Shown piece after piece: positions 3,413-44,070 of a stretch of 64,000 nucleotides of DNA. A program made the translations under genes and the position numbers. The notes beneath the pieces are model-generated. The model made no database searches. It was not told the DNA's origin and was given only the letters and a program-made list of their open reading frames with translations. Within the stretch, counting starts at the first letter, position 1, and each line of letters opens with the position of its first letter. The stretch comes from Williamsia sp. 1135. Lineage in GTDB: Bacteria > Actinomycetota > Actinomycetes > Mycobacteriales > Mycobacteriaceae. The stretch covers positions 1-64,000 of the forward strand of contig NZ_MJEI01000098.1 in assembly GCF_002095395.1 (NCBI RefSeq). Reading direction: 5' to 3'.

Positions 3413-3437
3413 CAAAACAAGTAATGAAACTTTTGTT

Positions 3438-3471: not shown

Positions 3472-3526
3472 AAACAAAACGACGGTTCTTCATCCGGCTT
3501 TGTTTGGGTGTGGATTGTTTCATAGA

Positions 3527-3644: not shown

Positions 3645-3652
3645 CACAATTT

Positions 3653-3703
3653 GCGAATACCCCGTATTCACAGCCCAACAGCTGCGAATACGGGGTATTT
3701 TGC
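3653..3703 (+). terminator. rRNA operon terminator
   Basis: A perfect 14-bp inverted repeat (3656-3669 with 3686-3699) has a 16-base loop and runs into a short T-rich tail (ATTTTGCT). It stands directly behind the 5S gene and fits an intrinsic terminator for the rRNA operon. Confidence 0.85.
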
Positions 3704-3750
3704 TATCCCCACACACGGTTGACCGGCACCCCCGGCACCCCCCCGGTACC

Positions 3751-3774
3751 CAAGTGGGTCATACGACCCACTTG
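3751..3774. promoter_or_regulatory. Palindromic operator candidate before amine oxidase
   Basis: A perfect 10-bp inverted repeat, CAAGTGGGTC-ATAC-GACCCACTTG, lies 29 bases before the amine oxidase start. It covers the expected -35 position of a promoter whose -10 hexamer (TACGAT) is at 3791-3796. That placement suits a repressor operator of the TetR or GntR type. No T-run follows, so a terminator is less likely. The regulator is unknown and is not encoded next to it. Confidence 0.6.
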
Positions 3775-3790
3775 CATCGCTCGGAGCGGT

Positions 3791-3796
3791 TACGAT
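3791..3796 (+). promoter_or_regulatory. -10 element of a leaderless promoter
   Basis: TACGAT ends seven bases before the ATG at 3804, so transcription would begin at or next to the start codon. This TAnnnT-N7-start arrangement recurs at several other genes in the window. Confidence 0.5.
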
Positions 3797-3803
3797 TCCT
3801 GCC

Positions 3804-5333: not shown

Positions 5334-5478
5334 GCGGAGTTCGACCAATTCGCGTGTCGGTGGTGTCGGCGGCTAGTCTGGCGTGCGGCCGATCGGCCGG
5401 TACAGGTAACTACATAGCGTGAATCCATCGGCTCCGTCTCTCGGGCGTGAGTGGTGTGATCGTGACGAAGAGGCAGAC

Positions 5479-7440
5479 GTGAACGACAGAAACAATCGTG
5501 GTGGCAACGGTCGCGGCAACTCGGGCGGTGGACGACCGACCGACCGTCGTGACGGTCCGAGCGGCCGCAATTTCCGTAATGACTCGGACGCTCGCCGCGG
5601 TACCGGATCCGCGAACCGCCCGCCCGAGCCGCCCTTGCCCGACGACGTCGTCCCGCAGGACCTCGACACCGAGGTACGTCGCGACCTGCTGAGTCTCGAT
5701 CGCACGAATGCCGACACGGTTTCACGACACCTCATCATGACCTTCCGGCTCCTCGACGAGGACCCCGTGTTGGCCCTCGAGCACGCCCGCGCCGCGCGAC
5801 GCCGCGCAGGCCGTATTGCGATGGTTCGCGAGGCCGCAGGCATCGCCGCCTACACCGCGCATGAGTGGGCCGAGGCGTTGTCGGAGTTGAGGGCCGCGCG
5901 GCGCATGTCCGGCGGCAACGCCCTGCTGCCGATGATCGCCGATTGTGAGCGTGGACTGGGACGTCCCGAGCGTGCGATCGATGTCGCCCGCAGCGAAGAG
6001 GGCCGGGCTCTGACCGACGAGGACGCTGCCGAGATGCGGATCGTCGAGTCGGGTGCGCGTCTTGATCTCGGAGAGTTCGACAAGGCGATTGTCACGCTGC
6101 AGACGAAGGATCTCGACCCGGCTCGAGTCGGTACGGATGCTGCGCGGTACTTCTACGCGTATGCCGCTGCGCTGCTCGCAGCCGGTCGGCGCGAGGACGC
6201 GATCACGTGGTTCATGAACGCCGCCTCTGCGGATGACGATGACGTGACCGACGCCGAGGACCGGTTGATGGAATTGGCAGCGCCGGAATCGGCTGCCGAT
6301 GAATCCGACGCCGAGTCCGCACTCCTCGCTCCCGTGCACGCGGAAGCCCCGAAAGCAGTGTCTGAGGTCAGCGCCCCGCCCGCGTTGAAGGAGGTGCCGG
6401 AACAGGTTGTGCCGCAACTGGTGCCGGCGGCTCCCGCCGAGCCCGGTGCGCGCCTGCGGGACGGGTACGACGTCCTGCTGCTCGATCTGGACGGAACTGT
6501 CTACGCGGGGAAGAGCGAGATCCCCGGTGCGAAGGACGCTCTCGACGCCGGCGAGCAGCGCAACTACTACGTGACCAACAACGCCAGCCGTTCTCCAGTG
6601 GACGTCGCAGAACATCTGCAGGAGCTGGGTTTTCGGGCCGAGCCCGACGAGGTCGTCACCAGTGCACAGTCGGCGGCGCGGCTCCTGGCAGAACAACTGC
6701 CGATGGGATCGCGAGTCCTGGTCGTCGGAACCGACGCACTGGTCCATGAGGTCCGGTCTGCGGGCCTCGGGGTGACCCGGAGCGCGGACGACCGACCGGC
6801 CGCTGTGGTGCAAGGACATTCACCGGACACCGGCTGGGCGATTCTGTCCGAGGCGGTACTCGCGATTCGAGCGGGTGCGCTATGGGTGGCGTGCAACGTC
6901 GATGCGACCCTGCCGACCGACCGCGGTCTCCAGATGGGCAACGGTTCGATGGTGGCCGCCGTCGCGAACGCCACGGGAGCGCAGCCGCAGGTTGCCGGGA
7001 AGCCCGCGTCACCGCTGATGGTCGACGCCGTCAATCGAAGTGGCTCGAAAACACCCCTGGTGGTCGGCGATCGCCTAGACACCGACATCGAAGGCGCGAA
7101 CGCGATCGAGGCCGACAGCCTCTTGGTGCTGACCGGTGTGAGCACCGCGGCCGATGCCCTCAATGCCCCGGAGGCGCAGCGTCCGACGTTCATCGCAGCG
7201 GATTTGCAAGGTCTCAACGCCGCCGCAGACGATGTGATCGTCGGCCCGCGGCCCGGGTGGCACGTCAGCGTCCTCGACCACACCCTCACGGTCGTGGCGC
7301 AGGACGGCGCCGACCCGGCGGCCGTGCTCTACGCCGTGTTGCACGAGGCCTGGTCGCGCGAGACGTCGACGAAGTGGATCGTCGAGGCCGCCGAAGAGGT
7401 GGCCCAGTCGGCGTTGATGAGCGCCGGTCTGCTGGCCTGA
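5479..7440 (+). CDS. TPR-like region fused to HAD-IIA phosphatase (Rv1691-Rv1692-like)
   Basis: One continuous frame encodes three parts. First is a disordered Arg/Gly/Asp-rich N-terminus (about 50 residues). Second is an alpha-helical, Ala-rich TPR-like region (about 55-270). After a Pro/Ala linker comes a complete HAD-IIA phosphatase (about 330-653), with nucleophile motif DLDGTVY near 336, YYVTNNASRSP (motif II), a GKP lysine and the VVGDRLDTDIEGA acidic motif. In M. tuberculosis, as I recall, the two halves are separate neighbouring genes, Rv1691 and Rv1692, the latter a glycerol-3-phosphate phosphatase. The GTG at 5479 is preferred for the GAAGAGG ribosome site before it and a Rv1691-like start; an in-frame GTG at 5419 would add 20 residues. 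Substrate is inferred from the homologue. Confidence 0.85.
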   Translation: MNDRNNRGGNGRGNSGGGRPTDRRDGPSGRNFRNDSDARRGTGSANRPPEPPLPDDVVPQDLDTEVRRDLLSLDRTNADTVSRHLIMTFRLLDEDPVLALEHARAARRRAGRIAMVREAAGIAAYTAHEWAEALSELRAARRMSGGNALLPMIADCERGLGRPERAIDVARSEEGRALTDEDAAEMRIVESGARLDLGEFDKAIVTLQTKDLDPARVGTDAARYFYAYAAALLAAGRREDAITWFMNAASADDDDVTDAEDRLMELAAPESAADESDAESALLAPVHAEAPKAVSEVSAPPALKEVPEQVVPQLVPAAPAEPGARLRDGYDVLLLDLDGTVYAGKSEIPGAKDALDAGEQRNYYVTNNASRSPVDVAEHLQELGFRAEPDEVVTSAQSAARLLAEQLPMGSRVLVVGTDALVHEVRSAGLGVTRSADDRPAAVVQGHSPDTGWAILSEAVLAIRAGALWVACNVDATLPTDRGLQMGNGSMVAAVANATGAQPQVAGKPASPLMVDAVNRSGSKTPLVVGDRLDTDIEGANAIEADSLLVLTGVSTAADALNAPEAQRPTFIAADLQGLNAAADDVIVGPRPGWHVSVLDHTLTVVAQDGADPAAVLYAVLHEAWSRETSTKWIVEAAEEVAQSALMSAGLLA

Positions 7441-7442
7441 CG

Positions 7443-8288
7443 TCAGCTGCGGGAGAACTCGGACGCCGCCTCGATCTGGGCGTCCGAGGGGCGCATCCCG
7501 GTGTAGAGGACGAACTGCTCGGCCGCCTGCAAGGCGATCACCTGAGCGCCCGTGATCACGGGGCGGCCGTCGAATGCGCTGATCAATGGCGTCCGGGCGG
7601 GCATCGCGACAACGTCGAAGGCGGCTTTCGCCTCGTCCACCGCGGCGGACGGAAACGGCAACCCCTCGGCATCGGGACCGCCGGCCATCCCCACTGGAGT
7701 CGTATTGACCAGCAGATCCGGACGTGCGGTCCCGAGCTCGGGTTGCCAGGTGAATCCGTACCGCTCGGCGAGTGCCCGTCCGGTCTGCTCGTTGCGGGCG
7801 ATCACTGCGGTGTCGGAGTATCCCTCGTCGCGGAGCGCCGCCACCACGGCCTTGGCCATGCCGCCACTTCCGGACACGGCGACTGTGTAGTCCGTCGGAA
7901 TGGAACTGTCTCGCAGCAGGTTCGCTGCCGCTTGGTAGTCGGTGTTGTAGGCATGCAGGGTGCCGTCTTCGTTGACGATGGTGTTGACGGAGTCGATGGC
8001 CGATGCCGAGCCGTGCATCACGTCGACGAGGTCGATGATCTTTTCCTTGAAGGGCATCGAGATGCCTGCGCCTCGGATGCCCAGAGCGCGGATACCTCCG
8101 ACCGCCGCAGGCAGGTCCGCAGTGCTGAATGCCTTGTAGACGAAGTCGAGTCCGAGCTCGTTGTAGAGGTAGTTGTGGAACTTCGTGCCGATGTTGCTCG
8201 GTCGCCCCGACAGCGAGATGCACAGCTGCGTGTCGCGTCGTAGAACTCGGGCATCTGGTGCGCCGGCGCCCGCGGTGGTGGAGGTCAT
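7443..8288 (-). CDS. Shikimate 5-dehydrogenase family protein (AroE-like)
   Basis: The 281-residue protein has the AroE fold signatures: LCISLSGRPSNIGTKFHN near the N-terminus (shikimate-binding Ser region), GISMPFKEKI with the catalytic Lys, NTDYQA, the nucleotide-binding loop VSGSGGMAKAV, and NTTPVGM. The wording of these motifs (ISMPFKE, SGSGG) is that of AroE-like paralogues rather than the biosynthetic AroE, so the substrate may differ. ATG at 8288 follows a TAGCGT -10 hexamer by six bases, suggesting a leaderless transcript; a GTG at 8291 is also possible. It is the only - strand gene within the housekeeping block and is divergent from the small gene at 8325. Confidence 0.85.
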   Translation of the reverse strand: MTSTTAGAGAPDARVLRRDTQLCISLSGRPSNIGTKFHNYLYNELGLDFVYKAFSTADLPAAVGGIRALGIRGAGISMPFKEKIIDLVDVMHGSASAIDSVNTIVNEDGTLHAYNTDYQAAANLLRDSSIPTDYTVAVSGSGGMAKAVVAALRDEGYSDTAVIARNEQTGRALAERYGFTWQPELGTARPDLLVNTTPVGMAGGPDAEGLPFPSAAVDEAKAAFDVVAMPARTPLISAFDGRPVITGAQVIALQAAEQFVLYTGMRPSDAQIEAASEFSRS

Positions 8289-8324
8289 CACTAGACGCTA
8301 ACAATCGACTAGCCTTGGCAGGCA

Positions 8325-8597
8325 ATGAACCAACCTCTGCCCGGACCCCGACCGACACCCGGTCCTGTCCCCGGACCCCGACCCGCCGCGCCGCCCGACG
8401 AGTCGGCGCACACTGTGGATCCCGATGAGATCCGGCGCCAGGTGTCCGAGCTGCTCGAACAGGCCGACGACATCGCGGCCTCGGTCGGCGACACCGCCGA
8501 CAGTGAGGCGCTGGCGCAGCTCGCCCGGCAGGCGCACCTGCTCGAAAAGGCGCACGGCGTGCTCACGGATGCTTTGGAGAAGGTCGATCGTGCCTGA
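8325..8597 (+). CDS. Small conserved hypothetical protein (Rv1693-like)
   Basis: This 90-residue protein has a Pro-rich N-terminal 25 residues and a helical remainder (DPDEIRRQVSELLEQADDIA and LARQAHLLEKAHGVLTDALEKV). It looks like a short coiled coil or helical hairpin. Its position between the HAD fusion and tlyA matches M. tuberculosis Rv1693, a protein of about 100 residues with no known function. TAGCCT lies nine bases before the ATG. No catalytic motif is visible. Confidence 0.75.
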   Translation: MNQPLPGPRPTPGPVPGPRPAAPPDESAHTVDPDEIRRQVSELLEQADDIAASVGDTADSEALAQLARQAHLLEKAHGVLTDALEKVDRA

Positions 8598-8641
8598 GGC
8601 TGCGCAATCGAAGGGTCCGGACGCGCTATGCCGTCCGAGTC

Positions 8642-9460
8642 ATGGCGCGTAGGGCCCGCCTGGACGCAGAGCTCGTGCGCCGCGGCGAGGCGCGATCGCG
8701 GGACCACGCTCGCGAACTGATCGAAGCGGGCCGGGTGAAGGTCAACGGCACGGTTGCGGGCAAGCCTGCCACCAACGTCGATCTCGGTGCTCCGATCGTG
8801 GTGGCCGAGGGCGACGACGAGGGGTGGGCCTCACGGGGCGCGCACAAGTTGCTCGGCGCTCTGGCAGCGTTCGAACCGCAGGGCGTCAGCGTCGCCGGAC
8901 GTCGTTGTCTCGACGCCGGCGCATCGACGGGCGGATTCACCGACGTACTGCTGCGACGGGACGCTCAGCAGGTGGTGGCGGTCGACGTCGGGTACGGCCA
9001 GCTGATCTGGCGTCTGCAGAATGACGCCCGCGTCGAGATCCACGACCGGACCAATGTCCGGAGCCTGACTGCCGAGCAGATCGGGGGACCGGTGGACCTC
9101 GTCGTCGCGGACTTGTCGTTCATCTCCCTTAACCTTGTCCTCGAGGCGTTCGCCAGCTGTGCGAAGCCCGGCGCAGACCTGCTACCGATGGTCAAACCGC
9201 AGTTCGAGGTCGGCAAAGATCGGGTGGGATCGGGGGGCGTGGTGCGCAGTCGCGAGTTGCGAACCGAAGCGGTGACCGCGGTGGCCGAGACGGCGGCGAG
9301 CCACGGGCTCGCCACGCTCGGTGCGGTGGCGAGCCCGCTGCCCGGTCCGTCGGGCAATGTTGAATACTTCCTCTGGCTGCGAAAACAGCCGGAACCGGCA
9401 TCGGTGGATGACACGGTGCGGGCGGCGATAGCAGACGCGATCGAGAAAGGGCCCCAGTGA
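8642..9460 (+). CDS. tlyA: TlyA family rRNA 2'-O-methyltransferase
   Basis: The 272-residue protein has an N-terminal S4 RNA-binding domain (residues about 1-60, ARRARLDAELVRRGEARSRDHARELIEAGRVKVNG) and a C-terminal FtsJ/RrmJ-like SAM methyltransferase fold. The SAM site is CLDAGASTGGFTDVLLRRDA, and the catalytic-tetrad segments include DLVVADLSFISL and MVKPQFEVG. In mycobacteria TlyA methylates cytidines of 16S and 23S rRNA, and its loss gives capreomycin resistance; the same role is inferred here. The stop overlaps the start of nadK by four bases, so the two are probably translationally coupled. Confidence 0.93.
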   Translation: MARRARLDAELVRRGEARSRDHARELIEAGRVKVNGTVAGKPATNVDLGAPIVVAEGDDEGWASRGAHKLLGALAAFEPQGVSVAGRRCLDAGASTGGFTDVLLRRDAQQVVAVDVGYGQLIWRLQNDARVEIHDRTNVRSLTAEQIGGPVDLVVADLSFISLNLVLEAFASCAKPGADLLPMVKPQFEVGKDRVGSGGVVRSRELRTEAVTAVAETAASHGLATLGAVASPLPGPSGNVEYFLWLRKQPEPASVDDTVRAAIADAIEKGPQ

Positions 9461-32952: not shown

Positions 32953-33717
32953 ATGACCAACGCGAAGCTGTCACTCGACGTACTGACCATTGCTGTGCCC
33001 ACGATCGACGATGCACGTTCGTTCTACTCGTCGACTTTCTCGCTGCCGGACACGTCGCTCGATCTGCACGGTGCGGGTGTTCTGGCCCTTGAAGCCGCCG
33101 TGACCTCGGGTGCGGTAACTGACTTCCAGGGGCTCGTCGTCAGCTACATCGTCGATCAGCCGAGCGAGGTGGAGTCTCTGCTCGCTGCTGCTGCCGCAGC
33201 GGGCGGGGAGATCCTCAAGCCCGCGAAGAAGGGATTCTTCGGCGGATTCACCGCAGTCTTCCGCGCACCCGACGGTGCGATCTGGAAGCTCGCCACTGAC
33301 AAGAAGAAGGACTCCGGTCCGGCCGCAGAGCCCCCGAAGCCCACCGAGACCGTCTGCATCCTGGGCGTCGATGACCCGAAGGCGTCCAAGTCGTTTTATA
33401 CCGCGCTGGGAATGACGGTCGACCGCGACTACGGCAAGAAGTTCATCGATTTCAAGTTCGACGCGGGCGCCTCGAGGCTCGGTCTGCTCCGCCGCTCGGA
33501 GTTGGCGAAAGACGCGGGTGTGTCGGATGCGGGTAGCGGGGGCGGCACGTCAGTGTTGGTCAGCCGCCAGCTGTCCCGCGAGGCAGTCGACGGATTGCTG
33601 GCTGCAGTAACCTCGGCGGGAGGCCAGATCTCCGCACCGGCCTCCGCGGTCGAAGGTGGGTACGCGGGACGGTTCACCGACCCGGACGGATTCACTTGGA
33701 AGGTCACGACCGACTGA
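32953..33717 (+). CDS. VOC family protein (glyoxalase/bleomycin-resistance fold)
   Basis: The 254-residue protein contains two VOC modules. The first starts LDVLTIAVPTIDDARSFYSSTF and ends with GGFTAVFRAPDGAIWKLATD. The second starts ETVCILGVDDPKASKSFYTALGMTVDRD and ends GGYAGRFTDPDGFTWKVTTD. The paired beta-alpha-beta modules form one metal- or ligand-binding site. Substrate and reaction cannot be assigned. The gene stands alone ahead of the two-component operon. Confidence 0.82.
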   Translation: MTNAKLSLDVLTIAVPTIDDARSFYSSTFSLPDTSLDLHGAGVLALEAAVTSGAVTDFQGLVVSYIVDQPSEVESLLAAAAAAGGEILKPAKKGFFGGFTAVFRAPDGAIWKLATDKKKDSGPAAEPPKPTETVCILGVDDPKASKSFYTALGMTVDRDYGKKFIDFKFDAGASRLGLLRRSELAKDAGVSDAGSGGGTSVLVSRQLSREAVDGLLAAVTSAGGQISAPASAVEGGYAGRFTDPDGFTWKVTTD

Positions 33718-33728
33718 CCCGAACTGCC

Positions 33729-33747
33729 TTCAGCTGAGATTCAGCGA
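33729..33747 (+). promoter_or_regulatory. Response-regulator box TTCAG-N6-TTCAGCGA
   Basis: Direct repeats of TTCAG with 11-bp period end 13 bases before a TAGGCT -10 hexamer (33761-33766). An identical arrangement occurs before the PepSY gene at 35904-35922. Tandem repeats with about one helical turn spacing are typical OmpR/PhoB-family sites, so autoregulation is likely. Confidence 0.65.
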
Positions 33748-33781
33748 GCTGACCGGACACTAGGCTGGAACACCCAGCTGT

Positions 33782-34483
33782 GTGCCCCGACGTTCGAAGG
33801 AGATCGGTATCCGCGTCCTTGTGGTCGACGACGAGGCCGGCCTGCTGCGGGCCATCGCAGCTGGTTTGGAGGCAGAGGGCTTCGCGGTCGACACCGCGAC
33901 CAACGGCACCGATGGGTTGTGGCTGGCCCAGGAAAACGACTATGCGGTGATCGTGCTCGACATCATGCTTCCGGGGATGAACGGCTACCAGATCTGCGCG
34001 CAGTTGCGTTCGGCGCAGAACTGGACGCCGGTCATCATGCTCACCGCAAAGGACGGTGACCTCGACCAGGTCGAGGCTCTCGACACCGGAGCCGACGACT
34101 ACCTCACAAAACCGTTCTCGTTTCCGGTGCTGCTCGCGAGGCTACGGGCCCTGATCCGTCGGGGCGGTGGAGAGCGACCCACGGTGCTCACGGTGGGTGA
34201 TCTGGCGATAGATCCGGCGGCCAAACGCGTGTCCCGCGGTGCCACCGCGATCGAACTCACCGCGAGAGAGTTCAGTGTGCTCGAGTTCCTGGTGTCGAAG
34301 AAGGGCGCGGTGGTGTCGAAGTCGGAAATCCTGGGTGCCGTATGGGACTTCGACTTCGACGGTGACCCGAACATCGTCGAGGTCTATATTCGCCATCTGC
34401 GCAACAAGGTTGATCGGCCATTCGGTCGGTCGTCGATCGAGACAATGCGCGGTGCCGGCTACCGGGTGGTCGACGATGCCTGA
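33782..34483 (+). CDS. OmpR/PhoB-family response regulator
   Basis: The protein has a receiver domain with acidic pocket DDE, phospho-acceptor Asp in VIVLDIMLPGMNG, Thr in MLTAKD and Lys in YLTKPFSF. A winged-helix DNA-binding domain follows (ELTAREFSVLEFLVSKKGAVVSKSEIL to VYIRHLRNKVD, GAGYRVVD). GTG at 33782 is the conventional start (233 residues). However, the only ribosome site, AAGGAG at 33797-33802, stands six bases before an ATC at 33809, exactly where family proteins begin (xRVLVVDDE). A rare ATC start is therefore possible. The stop overlaps the sensor kinase gene by eight bases. Confidence 0.9.
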   Translation: MPRRSKEIGIRVLVVDDEAGLLRAIAAGLEAEGFAVDTATNGTDGLWLAQENDYAVIVLDIMLPGMNGYQICAQLRSAQNWTPVIMLTAKDGDLDQVEALDTGADDYLTKPFSFPVLLARLRALIRRGGGERPTVLTVGDLAIDPAAKRVSRGATAIELTAREFSVLEFLVSKKGAVVSKSEILGAVWDFDFDGDPNIVEVYIRHLRNKVDRPFGRSSIETMRGAGYRVVDDA

Positions 34484-35837
34484 CAAGAACCGGCGGCGCC
34501 TGAAGTCGGTGCGCGCTCGCATCACCCTCATCGCCACCACAGTCGTGGCGCTTGCACTCGTCGTCGGGGGAGTGGCCTTCGTCATGATCCTCTCTGCCAC
34601 GCTGCGCGACTCCGCCGAATCAGCCGCCGACAGTGAGGCTTCTCGCTACGAGACGATCGTCGAACAAGCGGGCGGGTCGACGCGGGCCGCAGCAGCGTTG
34701 GCCGACATCGACGGATACGCGCAGTTGATCTCAGCAGGCCGGGTCGTCGGCGCGACCGATGAACTCGAGGGGGCTGCGCCGCTCGTGACCGCCGACCTCG
34801 AAGACCCCGCGGCCGTGACGGTCGTCGAGTCCGATGGTGACGAGGGTGACCGGCTGGTCATCGTGACGAAAGAACGCGATGACGGAACAGTGTTGGTGGC
34901 GGGCGTCGACGACGAAACCCGTGCCGATGCCGTCGATGCCACGCGAACCCTGCTCTTCTTCGCGGTGCCGGTCGTTGTGGTCTTCGTCGGGCTGACCTGC
35001 TGGATCGTCGTCGGACGTGCGTTGCGGCCGGTCGAGCGGTTGCGCCGTGAAGCCGAACAGGTCACCGCCGCTGATCTGAGCCGGCGGGTCGGCATCCCGG
35101 GTTCTGGGGATGAGATCGACCGGTTGGCCTCGACCCTCAACGGCATGCTCGGCAGGCTCGAGACATCGCAGGTTCGCCAGCGCCGTTTCGTCTCGGACGC
35201 ATCGCACGAATTGCGTTCGCCCATCAGCTCGTTGCGTCAGAACGCGGAGGTCGCACTGTCGTATCCCGGCCAGATCTCGCCGGACGAGTTCGCCGCAACA
35301 GTGAAGGCCGAGTCCGAGCGGATGGGTGGCTTGGTCGACAGCTTGCTGCTGCTTGCCCGCGCCGACGAGGCGACTCTGCACCTGACTGTCCGCGACGTTG
35401 ATCTCGACGACGCGGCACTCCGCGAGGTCAGCCGTGTTCGCGCCGATGCAGCTGAGTTGGTCGTCGACGGGTCGAAGATCACAGCTGCTCGGGTCCGAGG
35501 CGACGAGGCGATGCTCGGACGTGCCATACGCAACCTGGTCGACAATGCCGTGCGACACGCAAGCGAGAAAGTCGCGATCTCGACGCAGGTGGTGGATGGC
35601 CGCGAACCGGTCGCCCTGGTTGCCGTGGAGGACGACGGCGCCGGTGTGCCGGAGGGTGACCGTGAGCGCATCTTCGAACGCTTTGTGCGCCTGGATGAAT
35701 CACGTGCGCGCGATGCCGGTGGCGCGGGTCTGGGGCTGGCGATCGTCGCCGAAATTGCTGCGGCGCATGAGGGTTCGGTGCGAGTGGTCGACAGTGCCCT
35801 CGGTGGGGCACGATTCGAGATCAGACTGCCCATGTGA
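34476..35837 (+). CDS. Sensor histidine kinase
   Basis: The 453-residue kinase has a first membrane helix (ITLIATTVVALALVVGGVAFVMIL), an extracytoplasmic sensor region of about 100 residues and a second helix (LLFFAVPVVVVFVGLTCWIVV). The HAMP domain is GRALRPVERLRREAEQVTAADLSRRV and the H-box is SDASHELRSPISSLRQN. The ATPase has N-box NLVDNAVRH, DDGAGVPEGD and GGAGLGLAIVAEI. It forms a two-component pair with the overlapping upstream response regulator. The stimulus is unknown; the downstream PepSY target points to an envelope signal. Confidence 0.92.
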   Translation: MPDKNRRRLKSVRARITLIATTVVALALVVGGVAFVMILSATLRDSAESAADSEASRYETIVEQAGGSTRAAAALADIDGYAQLISAGRVVGATDELEGAAPLVTADLEDPAAVTVVESDGDEGDRLVIVTKERDDGTVLVAGVDDETRADAVDATRTLLFFAVPVVVVFVGLTCWIVVGRALRPVERLRREAEQVTAADLSRRVGIPGSGDEIDRLASTLNGMLGRLETSQVRQRRFVSDASHELRSPISSLRQNAEVALSYPGQISPDEFAATVKAESERMGGLVDSLLLLARADEATLHLTVRDVDLDDAALREVSRVRADAAELVVDGSKITAARVRGDEAMLGRAIRNLVDNAVRHASEKVAISTQVVDGREPVALVAVEDDGAGVPEGDRERIFERFVRLDESRARDAGGAGLGLAIVAEIAAAHEGSVRVVDSALGGARFEIRLPM

Positions 35838-35903
35838 GAGCCGACCGTGTACTTGTTGCGGCATCGCCCGTGTGAGTTTCGCGACAACTACACGCTGGGT
35901 GGT

Positions 35904-35922
35904 TTCAGGCTGGGTTCAGCGA
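35904..35922 (+). promoter_or_regulatory. Response-regulator box TTCAG-N6-TTCAGCGA
   Basis: The second copy of the motif at 33729-33747, with the same spacing, lies 46 bases before the PepSY start. It suggests that the adjacent response regulator controls this gene. Confidence 0.65.
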
Positions 35923-35968
35923 CTGCGCGAGAAGGTGATGCCACTACCCCAACGAGAAGGAGCATCAC

Positions 35969-36562
35969 ATGCCCAAGAAGACCATCGTCATCGCCGGAGT
36001 CGCCAGTGCAGCAATCTTGGCTCTCGGTGGCACCGGCATCGCCTACGCGGTGACGGACGGTTTCGGCGGATCAGATTACCTGAGCGGCAACGATCTGGAT
36101 CGGGCGACCGGCGCCGCCATCGCCGAGGTCGGTGGGGGATCGGTCACCAGCGCCGACAGGGACGACGACGGCGGCATCACCACCTACGACCTCGACGTCA
36201 TCGGCTCAGACGGGGTCGAGTACGAGATCACCCTCGATGAAGGCTTCAAGGTGTTGAAGGTCGACCGCGATGACGACGATGCTGCGCCGACGAACGGCGA
36301 GCAGACCGCGCCTCCCGTGGCGCCCACCACCGCACCGCCGGTCGCCGCTCCGGTGGACCCCGACGATCTCGTCGGCGAAGAACTCCAGCGGGCCTCCGAC
36401 GCCGCGATCGCAGCTGCCGGCGGCGGAACGGTGACCGATGCAGAACGCAGCGACGACCCGGGCCATGCGTTCGACGTCGAAGTGCGGCTCGCCGATGGGT
36501 CTGAGGTCGACGTTGATCTGAATGTTGATTTCAGCGTACTGGCGGTTTCTATCTCGCGCTAA
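35969..36562 (+). CDS. Secreted PepSY-domain protein
   Basis: The 197-residue protein has an N-terminal signal or anchor helix (VIAGVASAAILALGGTGIAYAV) and then two PepSY-like units. Unit one is LDRATGAAIAEVGGGSVTSADRDDDGG to VEYEITLDEGFKVLKVD; unit two is LQRASDAAIAAAGGGTVTDAERSDDPG to VDVDLNVDFSVLAVS. A Pro/Ala/Thr linker joins them. Acidic PepSY proteins next to two-component systems are thought to act as extracytoplasmic inhibitors or sensors. The gene has a good ribosome site (GAAGGAG) and the shared regulator box upstream. Confidence 0.82.
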   Translation: MPKKTIVIAGVASAAILALGGTGIAYAVTDGFGGSDYLSGNDLDRATGAAIAEVGGGSVTSADRDDDGGITTYDLDVIGSDGVEYEITLDEGFKVLKVDRDDDDAAPTNGEQTAPPVAPTTAPPVAAPVDPDDLVGEELQRASDAAIAAAGGGTVTDAERSDDPGHAFDVEVRLADGSEVDVDLNVDFSVLAVSISR

Positions 36563-36581
36563 ACCGAGACTTTAATTTATG

Positions 36582-37145
36582 CTACATCCTTCTTGCTGCG
36601 GGATATTTCGCGATGACGAGTGCATCTAGATGCACTGTGAAATCTCTAAGGATGGATATAGCAAGGTCTCCCGTCGTCGGTGAAAAAACCAGTTTCCGTC
36701 CGGAGCATACTATGTCGAGGTCTGCTTTTAGGTTCTTTCGTAGTTGGATTAGCTGATTTAGCTTGCCGAGTTGCCTATCTGTCAGGCTGCCTTCATTGTG
36801 AATTATTGCATTTCTTGCTGCATTGACTCGCTGAAGTTTCTGATACGTATGTTCGCCGGTTATGGAGACGCCAAACCCTTTGCTTAACCAACTCATTCGT
36901 TGGTCCCAATTGTCTACGAAGTCGTCAGCTAACGTGTTGATCATCGATTCTGCAAAAATGTTACCCCTAATCGGACTTTCGTCTATAAGACGGCCAACCA
37001 TCCGCGAGACATGTGCCTCGACCGGAGCGAGGCCGCTTATCAAGAGCTGCTGCGGTGGAAGCGCGTATCCGAGTAGTGCGTTCAGGGACAAAATGCAACG
37101 CTCGCCAGATTCGGACAGCTGTCGTGGTTCTATTTTTCGGCCCAT
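36582..37145 (-). CDS. HEPN-like protein paired with the reverse transcriptase
   Basis: The 187-residue all-helical protein carries R-N-A-I-I-H at residues 111-116 within NAARNAIIHNEGSLTDRQ. This matches the R-x4-6-H motif of HEPN ribonucleases, including the polar residue after Arg. Its ATG lies inside the last 16 bases of the reverse transcriptase gene, so the two are translationally coupled. The G+C content is visibly lower than in neighbouring genes. In AbiA-type defence RTs a HEPN domain is fused at the C-terminus of the RT; here it is a separate chain. By family analogy, a toxin RNase role is proposed. HEPN identity rests on one motif and the helical make-up. Confidence 0.7.
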   Translation of the reverse strand: MGRKIEPRQLSESGERCILSLNALLGYALPPQQLLISGLAPVEAHVSRMVGRLIDESPIRGNIFAESMINTLADDFVDNWDQRMSWLSKGFGVSITGEHTYQKLQRVNAARNAIIHNEGSLTDRQLGKLNQLIQLRKNLKADLDIVCSGRKLVFSPTTGDLAISILRDFTVHLDALVIAKYPAARRM

Positions 37146-38653
37146 GCCGCCGCTGCCTTACCAAGTTGGTCTTGCTTTAATTGGTTTAGAGTAGATTTCG
37201 GGAGGCTGCCTTGTTTCACGGCTGCGGCGACTAGCCCGGGTTGCGTTAATGGCGATGAGGTTGCGAAGACGCGGGTAAAAGTGTCGTCGGTCAGGAGAGA
37301 TTTCTTCGCTAGCGACCATGCGGCTTCGGCGCGGACAATCTCATGACTGTCTTCGAGTTGTCCAGAAACCCAGCGACATGCTTCATCAACCGAGTTAGAA
37401 TCTGCATCAGGTAGGGCTTGGAAAGTAGCCAGTAGCCATAGTTTCGCCCATGGGCTTTGTCGTGACACCGAACTGAGCGCATTGAACCGGTCCCACTGTG
37501 CGTCTGCGGTATCGAGATTGCCGGAAGTGTCAGTGGCGCGATTGATCGCGTAATTGCAGATGTTCTCCAGGGACCTTCGGTCCCTGGAGGCTACAAATTG
37601 CAGGAGTTCAGCGGGTACCGCGTCATTGTCCGATTCCAACAATCGGAGTGAAGTGCCCAAGGAACTGCGTTGAACGGGAGAGATTCCGTTTTCTGTCGTC
37701 CATGATCGCTTAATGTCACTGAGAATGTTGCGCGCGGCCGTGCGAACGTTGTCAACAACACTTACATCCTCGTGCGTATGGCTCGAATCATCATCGTTGA
37801 GTTCGTCCTCTGAGTCGTCCCCGTACGGCCCGCTTGCGAAAAACTGAACGACAGTCATTTGGCTGTCAATTGCATTCATATACTTTAGGAAGAACTCGTC
37901 TTCGTCTGATCGTGCACGAATCAGAGTCTCCCTCTTGGAGATCTTTGTCTTTTCTGAAGATAAAATCAACCCAATTTTCCGAAGTTGACTAGCGTAATCC
38001 TCAATTATGTCATTGGCTGACTCCCAGTCGCGTGAAGCGATCTTTATATCGTCGGCGAAACGATTGTGAGAGAGTTCCCTGCGTAACAATGATCGGTCGA
38101 TAATGCTCAAGTAAGTGTCCGCGAGTCTGTCGCTTGAGTGCAGCATCTGGGGCAATCCGCGAGGCCTGCTAAAGAACTGTCCGAGTAGATCAACGATTGC
38201 GGTGCTAAGGGCTCGATCTGAGGATCGTAGCATTAACTCATCCTGAAGAATGGCATGATCTATATATTCGTAGCACGACGCGACATCCAAATCGACAATG
38301 TACTCGTGTTCACCTTCGGTACCAAATGAACGATGGTTCTGCCAGCCCGTTGCACGGGACTCCTCGGGCAGTGTTGGGCCAATTTGATTTACCAAGGCCG
38401 TGTATGTGGCTCGCGCTCCAATTGATATAACGTCTACGGGGCGAGTGCCGAATCTTCCCTTTGGCATGGCGATGGTTTCCGTGGAAACGCCTAGTCCACT
38501 TTTGTGGTTCTTCGTGATGTTGTCGACAAGCTCCTGTTGAGCGTTTTCCAGGCACCGATCAGAGATTAGCTTGGGAAAGTGTTCGAGCGGGGTCGACGTT
38601 GAGACTTTTGCGGCCGTCGCCAGGTCAAGTGTCGTGAACTTTAATTCTTGCAA
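37130..38653 (-). CDS. Reverse transcriptase of the unknown-group/Abi type (AbiA-like)
   Basis: The 507-residue protein has an RT palm. Motif A is VDLDVASCYEYIDH (120-133) and motif B region RGLPQMLHSSDRLADTYL (165-182), with Met in place of the usual Gly after PQ. Motif C is RFADD (198-202) and the motif D region is LSSEKTKI (231-238). After an acidic linker (about 279-292) comes a helical C-terminal half with HEAT-like repeats (SHEIVRAEAAWSLAKK). There is no maturase or endonuclease domain and no group II intron or retron RNA. The TTG start has AAGGA five bases upstream. AT-rich codons indicate transfer. With the overlapping HEPN-like gene it resembles a split AbiA anti-phage module. Confidence 0.83.
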   Translation of the reverse strand: MQELKFTTLDLATAAKVSTSTPLEHFPKLISDRCLENAQQELVDNITKNHKSGLGVSTETIAMPKGRFGTRPVDVISIGARATYTALVNQIGPTLPEESRATGWQNHRSFGTEGEHEYIVDLDVASCYEYIDHAILQDELMLRSSDRALSTAIVDLLGQFFSRPRGLPQMLHSSDRLADTYLSIIDRSLLRRELSHNRFADDIKIASRDWESANDIIEDYASQLRKIGLILSSEKTKISKRETLIRARSDEDEFFLKYMNAIDSQMTVVQFFASGPYGDDSEDELNDDDSSHTHEDVSVVDNVRTAARNILSDIKRSWTTENGISPVQRSSLGTSLRLLESDNDAVPAELLQFVASRDRRSLENICNYAINRATDTSGNLDTADAQWDRFNALSSVSRQSPWAKLWLLATFQALPDADSNSVDEACRWVSGQLEDSHEIVRAEAAWSLAKKSLLTDDTFTRVFATSSPLTQPGLVAAAVKQGSLPKSTLNQLKQDQLGKAAAAWAEK

Positions 38654-38878
38654 GTTTTTCCTTCGTAAGTTCGGTCACCCCGAGTCGGATCGAGTATGAA
38701 GAGCAAGGTACCGGGCTGAAGGGTCCGACTTTGGTTGGCGCGCCGGACTAAACTAGACGGCTCGCCGTTGTTTGCGACTGCCAAGACGACGTGCTTGAGT
38801 CAACCCCATCAAACTGGTTGGGAGCCCTTCGTGGCGCCTCTATCTATCCGGCCGCGATGCTTCGGTAGGGTTCACCGG

Positions 38879-41260
38879 GTGAATTCGATCGCAGCTGTGA
38901 AGTCCGTGAATGCCCGTATCGCCGAGGAACTGTCTGTCGCAGAATCGCAGGTGGCGGCCGCTGTTCGACTACTCGACGAGGGGTCGACGGTGCCGTTCAT
39001 CGCGCGGTATCGCAAGGAGGTCACCGGCAGCCTCGATGACGCTCAGCTGCGGTTGCTCGACGAGCGCCTTCGCTATCTGCGCGAACTCGACGAGCGTCGC
39101 ACTGCGGTCCTGGCGTCCATCGAGGAGCAGGGCAAGCTCACCGATGAGCTGAAGGCCGCGCTGAACGCTGCGGAGACCAAGTCGCGGGTCGAGGACATCT
39201 ACCTGCCGTACAAGCCCAAGCGCCGGACCAAGGCACAGATCGCCCGGGAGAACGGTCTCGAGCCGCTCGCGGACCGGCTCCTCGCCGACCCGTCGCTGGT
39301 TCCCGACGAGGTGGCAGCCGAATACGTCGCCGGCGAGGTCCCGGATGTGGACAAGGCACTCGAGGGTGCGCGCCACATCCTGATCGAGCGGGTGTCGGAA
39401 GATGCCGAGCTGGTCGGTGCCGTCCGCGAGAAGTTCTGGGCCGAGGGTGCCTTGCGAACCCAACCGCGCACCGAAGAGGTCGGGAAAAGTGCTGCCGCGC
39501 AAAAGTTCCGTGACTACTTCGACTTCTCCGAACCGCTGGAGAAGATGCCATCCCATCGCGTTCTTGCCGTGATGCGCGGCGAGAAGGAAGAAATCCTCTC
39601 GCTGAGTCTCGACGGAGGCGAAGACGAGGCCTACCAGGCGATGGTGGCGGCGACCCTCGGTGTCGACACCACGCAGGCCGGTCCGACCACCCCCTGGCTG
39701 CTGGGCACCGCCCGGTTGGCATGGCGAGCAAAACTGATGATCACGGCAACGCTGGATGCACGTGTGCGTCTGCGCCGTCGCGCCGAAGACGACGCGGTGG
39801 CGGTGTTCGCCGAGAACCTCGGCGACCTGCTGCTGGCCGCTCCCGCTGGGGCCCGCACCACCCTCGGCCTCGACCCGGGTTTCCGCACGGGTGTGAAGGT
39901 GGCGGTGGTCGATGGCACCGGCAAGGTTCTCGACACCGCGGTGATCTACCCGCATCAGCCACAGAAGCAATGGGACGCCGCACGCGCGACCCTCGGCGCT
40001 CTCGTTGCCCGCCACGGCATCGAGTTGATCGCAGTCGGGAACGGCACCGCCTCCCGAGAGACCGATGCCCTGGCGACCGAACTGATCGCCGACGTCCAGA
40101 AGTCCGGTGGCACCCTCACCAAAGCAATGGTCAGCGAGGCCGGCGCGTCGGTGTACTCGGCGTCGGAATACGCCTCGCGCGAGTTCCCGGACATGGATGT
40201 CTCGCTGCGCGGCGCGGTCTCCATCGCCCGTCGCCTCCAGGATCCCCTGGCCGAACTCGTCAAGATCGAACCGAAGTCGATCGGTGTCGGTCAGTATCAG
40301 CACGACGTGACGCCGGGCGTGCTGGCGCGCAGCCTGGACGCGGTGGTCGAAGACGCGGTGAACGCGGTCGGCGTCGACCTCAACACCGCGTCCGTCCCGT
40401 TGCTGGCCCGGGTCTCCGGGGTGACGACGACCCTGGCCGAAGCCATCGTGGCGCATCGCGACAGCACCGGACCCTTCAAGAGCCGCAAAGCCCTCCTGAA
40501 GGTTCCGCGCCTGGGACCCAAGGCATTCGAGCAGTGCGCAGGCTTCCTGCGCATCCGAGAAGGCGACGACCCGCTGGACGCCTCCGGCGTGCACCCGGAG
40601 GCCTATCCGGTGGTCCGAAAGATCCTCGACCGGTCGGGGGTGTCGCTGGCCGAACTGATCGGCAATGAGCGGACGCTGCGCACGCTGCGGCCGGCCGAGT
40701 TCGCCGACGACCGCTTCGGTGTTCCCACGGTCACCGACATCCTCGCCGAGCTGGAGAAGCCGGGCCGCGACCCGCGGCCGGCGTTTGCCACTGCCACCTT
40801 CGCCGCGGGTGTCGAGAAGGTCGCTGACCTCAAGCCCGGCATGGTGCTCGAGGGTGTGGTCACGAACGTCGCCGCTTTCGGCGCATTCGTGGATGTCGGC
40901 GTCCACCAGGACGGGCTGGTGCATGTCTCTGCCATGGCCAACAAGTTCGTGTCCGACCCACATGAGGTGGTGAAGTCAGGGCAGGTTGTCCGGGTCAAGG
41001 TGATGGAGGTCGACGTCGACCGGCAGCGAATCGGTCTGTCACTGCGACTCGATGACGAACCCGGTGCGGGTAAGCCCAAACCAGAACAGCGGTCGAACAA
41101 TTCAGGCCAGCGTCCGGGTAAACGCCCCGAAGGCCGCAACCAACCGAACCAGCGCAATCAATCCCGGCGCGACAACAACTCCGGACGCAAACCGGCCGCA
41201 GCGCCCGCTGCGAACGGCTCCCTTGCACAGGCATTGCGCGACGCCGGGTTTGGCAAGTAG
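38879..41260 (+). CDS. tex: Tex family RNA-binding transcription accessory protein
   Basis: The 793-residue protein has the Tex order. An N-terminal helical domain has STVPFIARYRKEVTGSLDD; a YqgF/RNase H-like domain has TLGLDPGFRTGVKVAVVDGTGKVLDT. The tandem HhH region has VGVDLNTASVPLLARVSGV and KVPRLGPKAFEQCAGFLRI, and the S1 domain is PGMVLEGVVTNVAAFGAFVDVGVHQDGLVH. A basic Asn/Gln/Arg-rich tail follows. I start at GTG 38879 (VNSIAAVKSVNARIAEEL), the family N-terminus; the open frame extends 144 bases upstream without conserved content. A GACTTT-N16-TAAACT promoter candidate lies about 130 bases upstream. Confidence 0.92.
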   Translation: MNSIAAVKSVNARIAEELSVAESQVAAAVRLLDEGSTVPFIARYRKEVTGSLDDAQLRLLDERLRYLRELDERRTAVLASIEEQGKLTDELKAALNAAETKSRVEDIYLPYKPKRRTKAQIARENGLEPLADRLLADPSLVPDEVAAEYVAGEVPDVDKALEGARHILIERVSEDAELVGAVREKFWAEGALRTQPRTEEVGKSAAAQKFRDYFDFSEPLEKMPSHRVLAVMRGEKEEILSLSLDGGEDEAYQAMVAATLGVDTTQAGPTTPWLLGTARLAWRAKLMITATLDARVRLRRRAEDDAVAVFAENLGDLLLAAPAGARTTLGLDPGFRTGVKVAVVDGTGKVLDTAVIYPHQPQKQWDAARATLGALVARHGIELIAVGNGTASRETDALATELIADVQKSGGTLTKAMVSEAGASVYSASEYASREFPDMDVSLRGAVSIARRLQDPLAELVKIEPKSIGVGQYQHDVTPGVLARSLDAVVEDAVNAVGVDLNTASVPLLARVSGVTTTLAEAIVAHRDSTGPFKSRKALLKVPRLGPKAFEQCAGFLRIREGDDPLDASGVHPEAYPVVRKILDRSGVSLAELIGNERTLRTLRPAEFADDRFGVPTVTDILAELEKPGRDPRPAFATATFAAGVEKVADLKPGMVLEGVVTNVAAFGAFVDVGVHQDGLVHVSAMANKFVSDPHEVVKSGQVVRVKVMEVDVDRQRIGLSLRLDDEPGAGKPKPEQRSNNSGQRPGKRPEGRNQPNQRNQSRRDNNSGRKPAAAPAANGSLAQALRDAGFGK

Positions 41261-41261
41261 C

Positions 41262-42059
41262 TCACATGTCAAGCGCGTCACCGGGTGCGATCTCGGTGGC
41301 GCGCACTCCGGCCCGGCCGGCGAGAGTGACGAACTCCCCGCCGGGGCCGAAGAATCGATCGGGCTTGATCAGGCCGAGCCCTATCGGCCATAGCGTTCCG
41401 AAATGAATCGGAACCACGTGGCGCGCGGACACCTCCTGCGCTGCACGCACAGCACGCGCCGGATCCATATGTCCGACACCGAGAGTGGGGCCCCAGCCGC
41501 CCACAGGTAGCAGCGCGAGGTCGATGCCGGAAACCCAGTCGCCCAAAGCGGGGTACAGGTCGGTGTCGCCGGCGAAGTAGGTGCGCCGATCACCGGTGAT
41601 CACGTAGCCCAAGGCGGAGGTGGTGGCGGGGCCGCGACGCCACCGCCGACCGTCGTGGTCGGCAGGTACAGCGCGGATCGTCACATTGCCGACGGGCACC
41701 TCATCGCCCGCGCGCACCTCGATGAGCCGGTCGCCGACGCCACGCAGCGATGGGAGTACATCGGGTGCCCCGGCGGGGACCACGATCGGCACGTCGTGGG
41801 ACAGCAGATGCAGCGACCGTAGATGCGTGTGGTCGGCGTGCAGGTGCGAAAGCAGGACCGCGTCGGATGTGTGTACTTCTCCGCCTGAGGGGTTCGGCCC
41901 ACGCCGGCGCCGTAGATGCGCGACCCGCGAGGTGAGGACTGGGTCGGTGAGCACCACGGTTCCACGATCTCTGATCAGAACGCTCGCATGTCCGAGCCAG
42001 CGAACCGTGGGCCGCGCAGGGGTGCCGTTTGCGTCGTTGTCCCTGGGTATGGCGGCCAT
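41262..42059 (-). CDS. MBL-fold metallo-hydrolase
   Basis: The 265-residue protein has the metallo-beta-lactamase fold in the UlaG/RomA-like form. It shows TVRWLGHASVLI, the metal motif LLSHLHADHTHLRSL (HxHxDH), YFAGDTDLYPAL (bridging Asp) and VVPIHFGTLWP. ATG 42059 is the first start in frame after a long non-coding reading. Relatives include N-acyl-phosphatidylethanolamine phospholipase D-like and L-ascorbate-6-phosphate lactonase-like enzymes; the substrate is unknown. The stop lies one base after tex, convergent with it, and the start is divergent from the membrane phosphatase. Confidence 0.85.
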   Translation of the reverse strand: MAAIPRDNDANGTPARPTVRWLGHASVLIRDRGTVVLTDPVLTSRVAHLRRRRGPNPSGGEVHTSDAVLLSHLHADHTHLRSLHLLSHDVPIVVPAGAPDVLPSLRGVGDRLIEVRAGDEVPVGNVTIRAVPADHDGRRWRRGPATTSALGYVITGDRRTYFAGDTDLYPALGDWVSGIDLALLPVGGWGPTLGVGHMDPARAVRAAQEVSARHVVPIHFGTLWPIGLGLIKPDRFFGPGGEFVTLAGRAGVRATEIAPGDALDM

Positions 42060-42096
42060 GGGCACTACGATTCCAGAGATCAGCGAAAGGGGTGCG

Positions 42097-44070
42097 ATGC
42101 GCACCACAACCAAAGTCATTCGGTTGTTCATCGAGTTCGTGGTGTTGTGGCTCTCGTCCGCTGTGGCGATCCTCGTGCTCGATACCGTGTTCGACGGGAT
42201 CTCTCTCGACTCGATCAACATCGGTATCCCGAGTCTGTCGACCCTGCCGTCCGCGCTGGTGGTCGCTCTGGTCTTCGGTGTACTCAGCGCGGTGTTGTGG
42301 CCGGTGATCGTGCGGCTGATGTCATGGGTGGGTCCGGCGGTGCTCTTCTTGCTGGTCTTCTTCGCCAGCGGCGCGATCATGTGGTTGACGCTGCACATCA
42401 TCCCGATGGCGTCGGTCGACAAATCCTGGGACGCCGTGGTGATGGCGGCGCTGCTGTCGCTGTTCAGTTCCTTTGTCGGAGGCGCGGTCGCGTCGCGATC
42501 CGACACCTCCTACCGCCTGATGCAGGTACGCAGGCAACGACTCCGATTCCGTCGCAATCCCGGTGGTTCGGCGGCAACACCCGGACTACTGTGTATCCAG
42601 ATCGATGGCTTGGGCCACGATGTGTTGCGGCGCGCGATCGCCGATGGTGTCACCCCCGGTCTCGCGGCGATGGTCCGCAACACGCACTCGTTGATTCCGT
42701 GGCATACCGACTGGAGTAGCCAGACAGGTGCCAGCCAGCTCGGCATCCTGCATGGTTCGAACCACAACGTGCCCGCATTTCGGTGGTACGACAAGACATC
42801 CGGGAAGATCGCGGTCTTCAGCAACCCGCGCGCCAACGAGGATCGAGAAATCGAACGCGCCGAGATCCCCGGACTTTTGTCCGCCGATGGCGCGAGTCGG
42901 GGCAATCTGTTCACCGGTGGCGCCGAGGACAATGTGCTCGTCGTGAGCCGGATGCGTGGCGCGCGGCTCGGCGGCGGTGCGGGGTACTCGTCCTACTTTG
43001 CCGATCCATCGAGCACGTTGCGCACCCTGATCCGGATGATCGCCGAAGTGCAGCGGGAACTGAGGCAGGCATGGCGCCAGCGCCGCGCCGACGTCCGGCC
43101 GAGGGTGCCCCGCGGCGGTTCCTACCCGCTGGTACGGGCATTCGCGAATGTGCTGGCAACCGACGTCACGGCGGCGGCGGTCGTCCGCGACCTCATCCAG
43201 GGCCGGAGCATCATCTACGTCGACCTGATCGGCTACGACGAGGTCTCGCATCACTCCGGGATCTCCCGACCGGAAACGCTGTCGGTGCTGACCAAGATCG
43301 ATGAGGTCATCGCGATGCTGCTGAAGGTGATCGAACAGGCCGACCGTTCGTACCGCGTCGTGGTGCTGTCCGATCACGGTCAAAGTCAGGGTGCGACGTT
43401 TCTGCAGCGGTATGGCGAAAGTCTCGAGCAACTTGTCTTGCGGTTGTGCGGTACCGAGGAGCTCGCGCCGGTCACGGACTCCCGACCGGGGGCCGAAGGG
43501 ATCGAGTACGCGGCAGCAAGCGTGCGCCCGCCGAAGGCGGGCGAGGAGCCGGCCACACCTGAGGGAGTTCCGATCGTCCTGGGATCGGGAAACCTGGGCT
43601 TGATCAGCTTTCCACGCATACCGCACCGCGCCACCGTCGAGACGGTTGCTGCCGAATACCCCGGTCTGGTGGAGGCCTTGCGGGTCCATCCCGGCATCGG
43701 ATTCGTGTTACTCGCTCGGTCGACGGGTGGGTCGGTGGTTCTCGGTGCCGATGGTTCTGTAGACGTCGACACCGGTGCGGTCGAGGGTGTCGACCCACTC
43801 GCATCCTTCGGATCCGATGCTCTCGAAAAGATTCGCAGGACAGACTCATTCGACAATGTCGCCGATATCATGGTCGGCGGTGCCTACTGGCCGGAGACGG
43901 ACGAGGTGGCTGCGTTCGAAGAGCAGGTCGGGTCGCACGGCGGTATGGGTGGACCCCAGAGCACGCCATTTCTGCTCTACCCTGACGATGTACCCGCGCC
44001 ACCGAATCGCGTGTACGGGGCGGAACAGGTGCACGCAGTGCTCGCCGGATGGCGGGATCGCGACGACTAG
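42097..44070 (+). CDS. Membrane protein with holin-like TM domain and alkaline-phosphatase-fold domain
   Basis: The 657-residue protein has four N-terminal membrane helices (residues about 5-135: FIEFVVLWLSSAVAILVLD, ALVVALVFGVLSAVLWPVIV, AVLFLLVFFASGAIMWLTL, AVVMAALLSLFSSFVGGAVA) of the phage-holin-like type. A phosphodiesterase/alkaline-phosphatase superfamily domain follows, with CIQIDGLGHDVL (metal Asp), YVDLIGYDEVSHHSG and VVVLSDHGQSQGATF. The catalytic Thr/Ser region is TDWSSQTGASQLGILHG. It likely cleaves a phosphodiester or nucleotide in or near the membrane. The holin label is structural only. AAAGGGG precedes ATG 42097. It is followed nine bases on by the EEP gene, so the two are one operon. 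Confidence 0.82.
   Translation: MRTTTKVIRLFIEFVVLWLSSAVAILVLDTVFDGISLDSINIGIPSLSTLPSALVVALVFGVLSAVLWPVIVRLMSWVGPAVLFLLVFFASGAIMWLTLHIIPMASVDKSWDAVVMAALLSLFSSFVGGAVASRSDTSYRLMQVRRQRLRFRRNPGGSAATPGLLCIQIDGLGHDVLRRAIADGVTPGLAAMVRNTHSLIPWHTDWSSQTGASQLGILHGSNHNVPAFRWYDKTSGKIAVFSNPRANEDREIERAEIPGLLSADGASRGNLFTGGAEDNVLVVSRMRGARLGGGAGYSSYFADPSSTLRTLIRMIAEVQRELRQAWRQRRADVRPRVPRGGSYPLVRAFANVLATDVTAAAVVRDLIQGRSIIYVDLIGYDEVSHHSGISRPETLSVLTKIDEVIAMLLKVIEQADRSYRVVVLSDHGQSQGATFLQRYGESLEQLVLRLCGTEELAPVTDSRPGAEGIEYAAASVRPPKAGEEPATPEGVPIVLGSGNLGLISFPRIPHRATVETVAAEYPGLVEALRVHPGIGFVLLARSTGGSVVLGADGSVDVDTGAVEGVDPLASFGSDALEKIRRTDSFDNVADIMVGGAYWPETDEVAAFEEQVGSHGGMGGPQSTPFLLYPDDVPAPPNRVYGAEQVHAVLAGWRDRDD

Follow-up and report, generated by a model that had tools for sequence, protein, structure and literature searches.

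A stretch of 64,000 nt from Williamsia sp. 1135 (contig NZ_MJEI01000098.1, assembly GCF_002095395.1; referred to as the window) contains an inserted module of two overlapping minus-strand genes, which encode a reverse transcriptase (RT) and a small HEPN protein. Judged by its family matches, the gene pair appears to be a two-gene defense-associated reverse transcriptase (DRT) system of the UG22 type (UG, unknown group) with a separate HEPN protein, i.e. a candidate defense system. Both proteins are already catalogued for defense, so that the pair as such is not new; what remains of interest is its mechanism and its insertion site. On balance, we lean towards a mechanism in which the UG22 RT and its DNA restrain a dimeric HEPN RNase, which infection would free to cut RNA, so that phage growth would be aborted.

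The family assignment was based on the profiles of PADLOC (PADLOC-DB version of 2023). The window RT matched RT_UG22 (PDLC03760) over residues 6-505 with an expectation value (E) of 1.2e-146 and 487.5 bits, followed by UG21 as the second-ranked family (E = 2.8e-31, 106.9 bits). A match to Pfam RVT_1 was obtained as well (E = 1.1e-13). The protein encoded by the second gene matched RTasHEPN (PDLC03820, E = 6.5e-38). Both PADLOC models, which carry the description DRT, were matched over essentially their full length. The same families ranked first for each of the 13 RTs that were scanned at loci with a HEPN gene (those of the window, L013, L042, L043, and nine more, leaving out the RT of locus L053, which lies in two frames) and for all 14 HEPN proteins. 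Nothing was found that sets the window pair apart from the UG22 RT and RTasHEPN of PADLOC, and we regard it as a member of this group.

The initial annotation had described the two genes as a candidate split AbiA-type defense system. One part of this description stands: a UG/Abi-type RT with a helical half, accompanied by a separate HEPN protein, remains a candidate for defense. The AbiA part does not, the RT being of the UG22 type. AbiA was not among the best 25 of the 61 PADLOC families matched by the window RT, and the RT of L043 reached 25 bits on the AbiA model vs 470 on UG22. A profile of the HEPN proteins matched no AbiA chain in the Protein Data Bank (PDB), and the fused layout of AbiA was rejected, RT and HEPN being separate open reading frames (ORFs) in the window and in its relatives. 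Two further assignments were rejected on model scores: the window RT attained 22 bits on the NCBIfam model for the retron St85 RT (cut-off 235) and 63 bits on that for group II intron RTs (cut-off 300), against 487 for UG22.

Both catalytic motifs read from the RT palm in the initial annotation, motif A and FADD, were located (Table 1). The residues D123, D201, and D202 were invariant in 13 of 13 aligned RTs, as were Y128 and Y130; E129 is replaced by Q (YQY) in two plasmid RTs. The HEPN motif of the small protein was likewise confirmed. Its R, N, and H were invariant in all 14 distinct proteins (12 of 12 aligned plus both plasmid copies), some of which share only 13-19% identity with the protein of the window. 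The arrangement R-N-x3-H fits the pattern of catalytic HEPN domains (R-x4-6-H with a polar residue after R), and position 43, within the long second helix (31-56), is acidic (E, or D in L052). An acidic residue in the second helix, together with this motif layout, has been described for HEPN RNases (PMC3710099). Because R-N-x3-H is invariant at low overall identity, we prefer to regard the HEPN protein as an active RNase.

Relatives were sought in 396 sampled genomes of the phylum, with a threshold of E 0.001 or better and with the genome of Williamsia sp. 1135 itself counted. The HEPN protein of the window matched in 3 of these genomes and the PADLOC HEPN model in 7. RTs with more than 200 bits on RT_UG22 were found in four genomes (its own, G316, G340, and G078; at most three candidates per genome were scored), and a HEPN gene was present in two of the four (its own and G316). 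A scan of contigs with RT patterns, taken from a two-row alignment of the window and G316, yielded 11 genome loci, one of which (L047, on the G316 contig) was part of the query alignment. These loci belong to Lentzea (two), Pseudonocardia, Cellulosimicrobium, Microbacterium (the G316 contig), Nocardia, Glaciihabitans, an unclassified member of the Microbacteriaceae, Dactylosporangium, and two metagenome-assembled genomes (MAGs) titled Actinomycetota and Acidimicrobiia; all 11 are Actinomycetota.

The same two-gene order, which the initial annotation had suggested looking for in other actinobacteria, was present there, with a HEPN ORF directly 3′ of the RT in 11 of 11 scan loci. Among 1,048 plasmid records that matched the RT to some extent, two, both from Rhodococcus, were examined, and in each of them a HEPN gene adjoins the RT. 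As a partial control, the HEPN profile found no match in 26 loci holding other RTs (L016-L041), which reach at most ~1.5 kb past the RT core. The coupling of the two genes by overlap, seen in the window, is shared by most relatives. With start codons as given, 10 of 12 relatives show an overlap of 4-23 bases, and L049 has a 5-base gap. In L042 (plasmid pCP209) the annotated HEPN start (5716) leaves a 176-base gap after the RT; an in-frame GTG at 5536 (HEPN ORF 5536-6198) overlaps the RT stop by four bases, and the annotated start is probably too late. With this GTG the overlap is present in 11 of 12 relatives, or in 12 of 13 loci including the window, a count that leaves out L053 and depends on start codons chosen by us. 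Distance matrices of RT and HEPN proteins agreed across 13 loci (Mantel r = 0.891, a value reached in none of 10,000 permutations), as would follow from joint inheritance of the pair. In all 13 loci the module was poorer in GC than the flanking DNA, with differences from 0.015 (one plasmid) to 0.16.

Some observations were made on more distant or defective members. In L053 (Acidimicrobiia MAG, 4586-6105) a UG22-like RT is split across two frames, by assembly error or decay, and the HEPN ORF is open. Two diverged RTs, in L080 (G340) and L081 (G078), had UG22 as their best family with 312 and 252 bits, respectively. In these RTs (~6486-8282, minus strand, and ~6930-8858, plus strand) HGDD or VGDD replaces [YF]xDD at the active site, and they possibly form a separate subgroup. 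Single-sequence searches returned no relatives from viral contigs (HEPN and RT), genome contigs (RT), or plasmids and phages (HEPN). The RT searched against phages gave 35 records (20 of them listed) with partial, weak matches to the RT core, none covering 80% of the query.

Comparison of the window (positions 33001-42500) with congener loci by blastn identified the module as an insertion, since the alignments with G396 (L063) and G402 (L064) break off at 36519 and resume at 38860, with a near-empty site of 74 and 105 bases, respectively, in between. As aligned, the left edge of the module falls inside the left-hand ORF (35969-36562), within its final 43 bases. The higher AT content noticed at the outset corresponds to a GC of 0.512 in the insert vs 0.651 in the rest of the window (from 3.7 kb on, insert excluded). 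In G397 (L065, ~2779-6990), the same junction holds ~4.2 kb of low-GC DNA with a single protein of 1,219 aa, which matched Pfam NACHT above the cut-off (E = 1.2e-9) and, weakly, the PADLOC candidate PDC-S73 (E = 1.9e-6). NACHT proteins are a known antiphage type. In total, nine genomes of the genus were searched, its own included, and four of them keep the left-hand neighbors. Among these four, the slot is empty in two, holds the UG22-HEPN pair in one, and holds the NACHT protein in one. In the five other congeners, which are more distant, the ~9 kb upstream of tex yielded neither the left-hand genes nor a clear low-GC insert beside tex, with GC dipping to 0.58-0.61 in some. The presence of a different low-GC insert with a NACHT protein at the slot of the module suggests a small insertion hotspot for defense genes between the left-hand gene block and tex (the labels tex and PepSY for the flanking genes are those of the initial annotation).

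Structure prediction agreed with the architecture proposed for the RT. The AlphaFold2 model (mean pLDDT 83.9, pTM 0.85) comprises an RT core, a disordered acidic linker that is poorly modeled (261-296), and a helical-repeat half, for which the RT profile found matches among PDB sequences in designed alphaRep proteins and in helical repeats of AP complexes. The best solved fold was that of DRT6 (9wy8, E = 1.1e-10, TM score 0.67/0.68), followed by DRT4 and UG15 (TM ~0.5) and later by Abi-P2 and AbiK (~0.5). AbiA ranked lower (TM ~0.4), which again speaks against the AbiA link. For the HEPN protein, the model (pLDDT 84.8, pTM 0.82) consists of helices and one beta hairpin and places the motif where helix 99-117 ends; a small protein lacking the helical bundle, which would have contradicted the HEPN assignment, was not what was predicted, although the evidence for the fold is weak.

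One trait of class 1 UG/Abi RTs was found in the window RT, i.e. a helical-repeat domain after the RT core. In the literature, enzymes of this class consist of an RT with HEAT-like repeats fused to it (PMC12489045) and make untemplated, protein-primed DNA (PMC13275509). From the anatomy of the pair, we infer a DNA-making RT that restrains a HEPN RNase. In the proposed sequence of events, (i) the RT would form an oligomer; (ii) with itself as primer and no RNA as template, it would make DNA; (iii) the RT with its DNA would bind and restrain the HEPN dimer, in which (iv) the two R-N-x3-H sites would form one RNase center; (v) a phage product altering the DNA or the RT, e.g. a single-stranded-DNA-binding protein, a nuclease, or a helicase, would act as the trigger; (vi) the freed or activated HEPN dimer would cut tRNA or other RNA; and (vii) translation would stop and phage growth would be aborted.

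Parts of this scheme have counterparts in described systems. In the type IX retron Kva2, a single operon couples an RT with a stand-alone HEPN RNase, and the complex of RT and multicopy single-stranded DNA (msDNA) sequesters the HEPN RNase dimer until a phage protein releases tRNA cutting (PMC13405049, a preprint). Kva2 differs from the window module in having a non-coding RNA, msDNA, and a winged-helix protein, as well as no canonical HEPN motif according to the same preprint; also, by model score the window RT is no retron RT. DRT1, an RT-nitrilase, is similarly a polymerase whose protein-primed DNA adducts control the attached effector domain, with both RT and effector active sites needed (PMC13275509), but it is a single chain of class 3 with a nitrilase as effector. 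DRT6 and DRT4 share the combination of RT and helical repeats and include the closest solved structures to the RT model; they are described as single-gene systems (PMC13213688), whereas the module of the window has two genes. DRT4 makes random, protein-primed single-stranded DNA (ssDNA; PMC13213688; PMC13314766).

A number of results weigh against the proposed restraint of a HEPN RNase by an untemplated polymerase. Regarding the RT, sequence comparison points away from the Abi enzymes. Among PDB sequences, the RT profile matched group II RTs (E = 7e-14), DRT9 (1.6e-9), and Drt3a (1.7e-5) better than UG15 (0.002) or AbiK (0.012); among PADLOC families, Drt3a and UG17 scored above AbiP2 for the window RT; and in the fold search group II intron RTs were interleaved at lower TM (0.35-0.40 of the query). 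In sequence, the RT core resembles RNA-copying RTs more than Abi enzymes, so that the class 1 reading of the RT rests on the helical half and the whole fold. Within the first 60 residues of the aligned RTs, no conserved tyrosine, serine, or threonine offers itself as an obvious DNA primer.

The fold match of the HEPN protein is weak as well. The best PDB match of the HEPN model was MtlR (E = 0.22, TM 0.41-0.45); this search gave nothing below 1e-3, with non-HEPN folds from rank 3 on and entries of Csm6 and HepT at E ~2. Of 12 members, 6 matched Pfam HEPN_RiboL-PSP, at a best E of 0.023, the window protein not being among them, and the lowest E in the same table belonged to an unrelated match of one member to MtrB (2.6e-4). 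The profile built from the HEPN alignment, searched against the PDB, yielded four weak and unrelated matches. Nor is the partnership universal, since the UG22-like RTs of L080 and L081 showed no HEPN match within the 15-16 kb fetched around them. The flanks of 11 relatives (94 ORFs) contained restriction-modification and other defense families as well as two phage-integrase matches, which were not used as support: the survey comprised the best 25 of 124 PADLOC families and of 82 Pfam families, without assignment to loci and without a background set. Finally, the literature searched contained no study of UG22, nor one treating UG22, reverse transcriptase, and HEPN together. The 2022 classification of UG/Abi RTs (Mestre), which lies outside that literature, probably describes the UG22/HEPN pair.

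The precedent of AbiA tells against RNA cutting as well, and on it the strongest of the alternative explanations can be built. The HEPN protein would then be a structural partner that dimerizes the RT and may bind nucleic acid, with no cutting of RNA, and defense would come from the DNA made by the RT. AbiA, like the pair of the window, combines all three of RT, helical repeat, and HEPN. Its HEPN domain, with R-x6-H, was inactive on four RNAs and mediates dimerization, and its removal abolishes polymerase activity (PMC11077055). The RT of DRT4 alone defends through its random ssDNA (PMC13213688; PMC13314766), and MtlR is considered a non-catalytic HEPN protein (PMC11077055). However, AbiA forms a single chain in which six residues separate R from H, whereas the HEPN protein of the window is encoded by a separate gene next to an RT of UG22 type and has four-residue spacing. 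If the domain served structure only, loss of its motif in some lineages would be expected, which is not what the alignment of the strongly diverged HEPN proteins displayed. We therefore consider a merely structural role unlikely.

As another possibility, the pair could be a plain toxin-antitoxin system, in which contact with the RT protein suffices to neutralize a HEPN toxin and no DNA synthesis is needed. An operon of two overlapping genes, one for a small candidate HEPN RNase and one for a larger protein with helical repeats, would suit such a system, and many HEPN toxin-antitoxin pairs share this layout. This explanation is made improbable by the invariance of the RT catalytic aspartates and by the requirement of DRT1 for the active sites of RT and effector alike (PMC13275509).

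A low probability was likewise given to a retron-like or class-2-like explanation, according to which the RT copies a non-coding RNA hidden near or inside the module and the resulting DNA controls the HEPN protein. Because of the RT-core sequence matches, in which the RNA-templated DRT9, Drt3a, and group II RTs precede UG15 and AbiK, we raised the weight of this explanation and lowered that of the untemplated polymerase. The coupling of RT, non-coding RNA, and HEPN RNase in retron Kva2 provides a precedent (PMC13405049), and the 206-bp stretch upstream of the RT gene could hold a short RNA. Against it, the RT model in its whole fold comes closest to DRT6, DRT4, and Abi types, which have a helical domain, and no RNA was detected: the 206 bp had an RNA fold z-score of +0.74, blastn among the upstream regions of 13 loci gave a best match of E 0.09 and none below, and Rfam had no match in the module at gathering scores. 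An upstream RNA template or msr-msd element, shared, structured, or known to Rfam, is thus unsupported.

That the module does not serve defense at all, being a housekeeping or mobile-element RT beside an RNA-binding protein by chance, we regard as very improbable: the neighbors in the window resemble ordinary chromosomal genes, but the HEPN protein is sporadic in the phylum, the insertion site is also used by a NACHT protein, relatives are plasmid-borne, and PADLOC lists both proteins.

The features of the module are compiled in Table 1. The promoter is presumably located upstream of the RT gene; a promoter/terminator scan was uninformative, with no promoter match on the minus strand in this region.

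Table 1. Coordinates of the module and its features in the window.
Feature	Coordinates	Strand	Basis
Inserted module, 2,340 bp	36520..38859		blastn of congener loci
UG22-type reverse transcriptase, 507 aa, TTG start after AAGGA	37130..38653	-	PADLOC RT_UG22, Pfam RVT_1
RT motif A DLDVASCYEYID, residues 121-132	38258..38293	-	Alignment of RTs
RT active-site FADD, residues 199-202	38048..38059	-	Alignment of RTs
RT helical-repeat half, residues ~297-507	37133..37765	-	AlphaFold2 model, profile matches
RT/HEPN gene overlap, 16 bases	37130..37145	-	ORF coordinates
RT-associated HEPN protein, 187 aa, ATG start	36582..37145	-	PADLOC RTasHEPN, predicted model
HEPN motif R-N-A-I-I-H, residues 111-116	36798..36815	-	Alignment, model
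Module upstream region, promoter presumably here	38654..38859	-	No sign of structured RNA

Stand-alone proteins with the motif RNFIVHN and weak similarity to RTasHEPN were noted in two other loci, L007 (1471-2169, minus strand) and L008 (1111-1830, plus strand), with no RT profile match in the 3.3 kb fetched. In L008, the ORF downstream of the RNFIVHN protein resembles what we take to be a DUF1156-type methyltransferase.

With regard to the restraint of a HEPN RNase by the UG22 RT and its DNA, the module possibly represents an Abi-type polymerase wired to a separate, apparently intact RNase, each half of which can be mutated or withheld separately. At 2.3 kb the module is small, and sister genomes offer empty sites, which eases transfer and comparison. 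A more specific version, which we put forward tentatively and hold to be rather doubtful, is that of a 'retron without an RNA', in which untemplated DNA on the RT serves as an antitoxin-sensor that silences a separate, canonical HEPN tRNase. The purpose of the undefined ssDNA produced by Abi-type polymerases is described as unsettled (PMC13275509). If true, this version would join the untemplated polymerases of Abi systems and DRT4 to retron-style control of an effector, and would point to a function for the random DNA that class 1 enzymes make.

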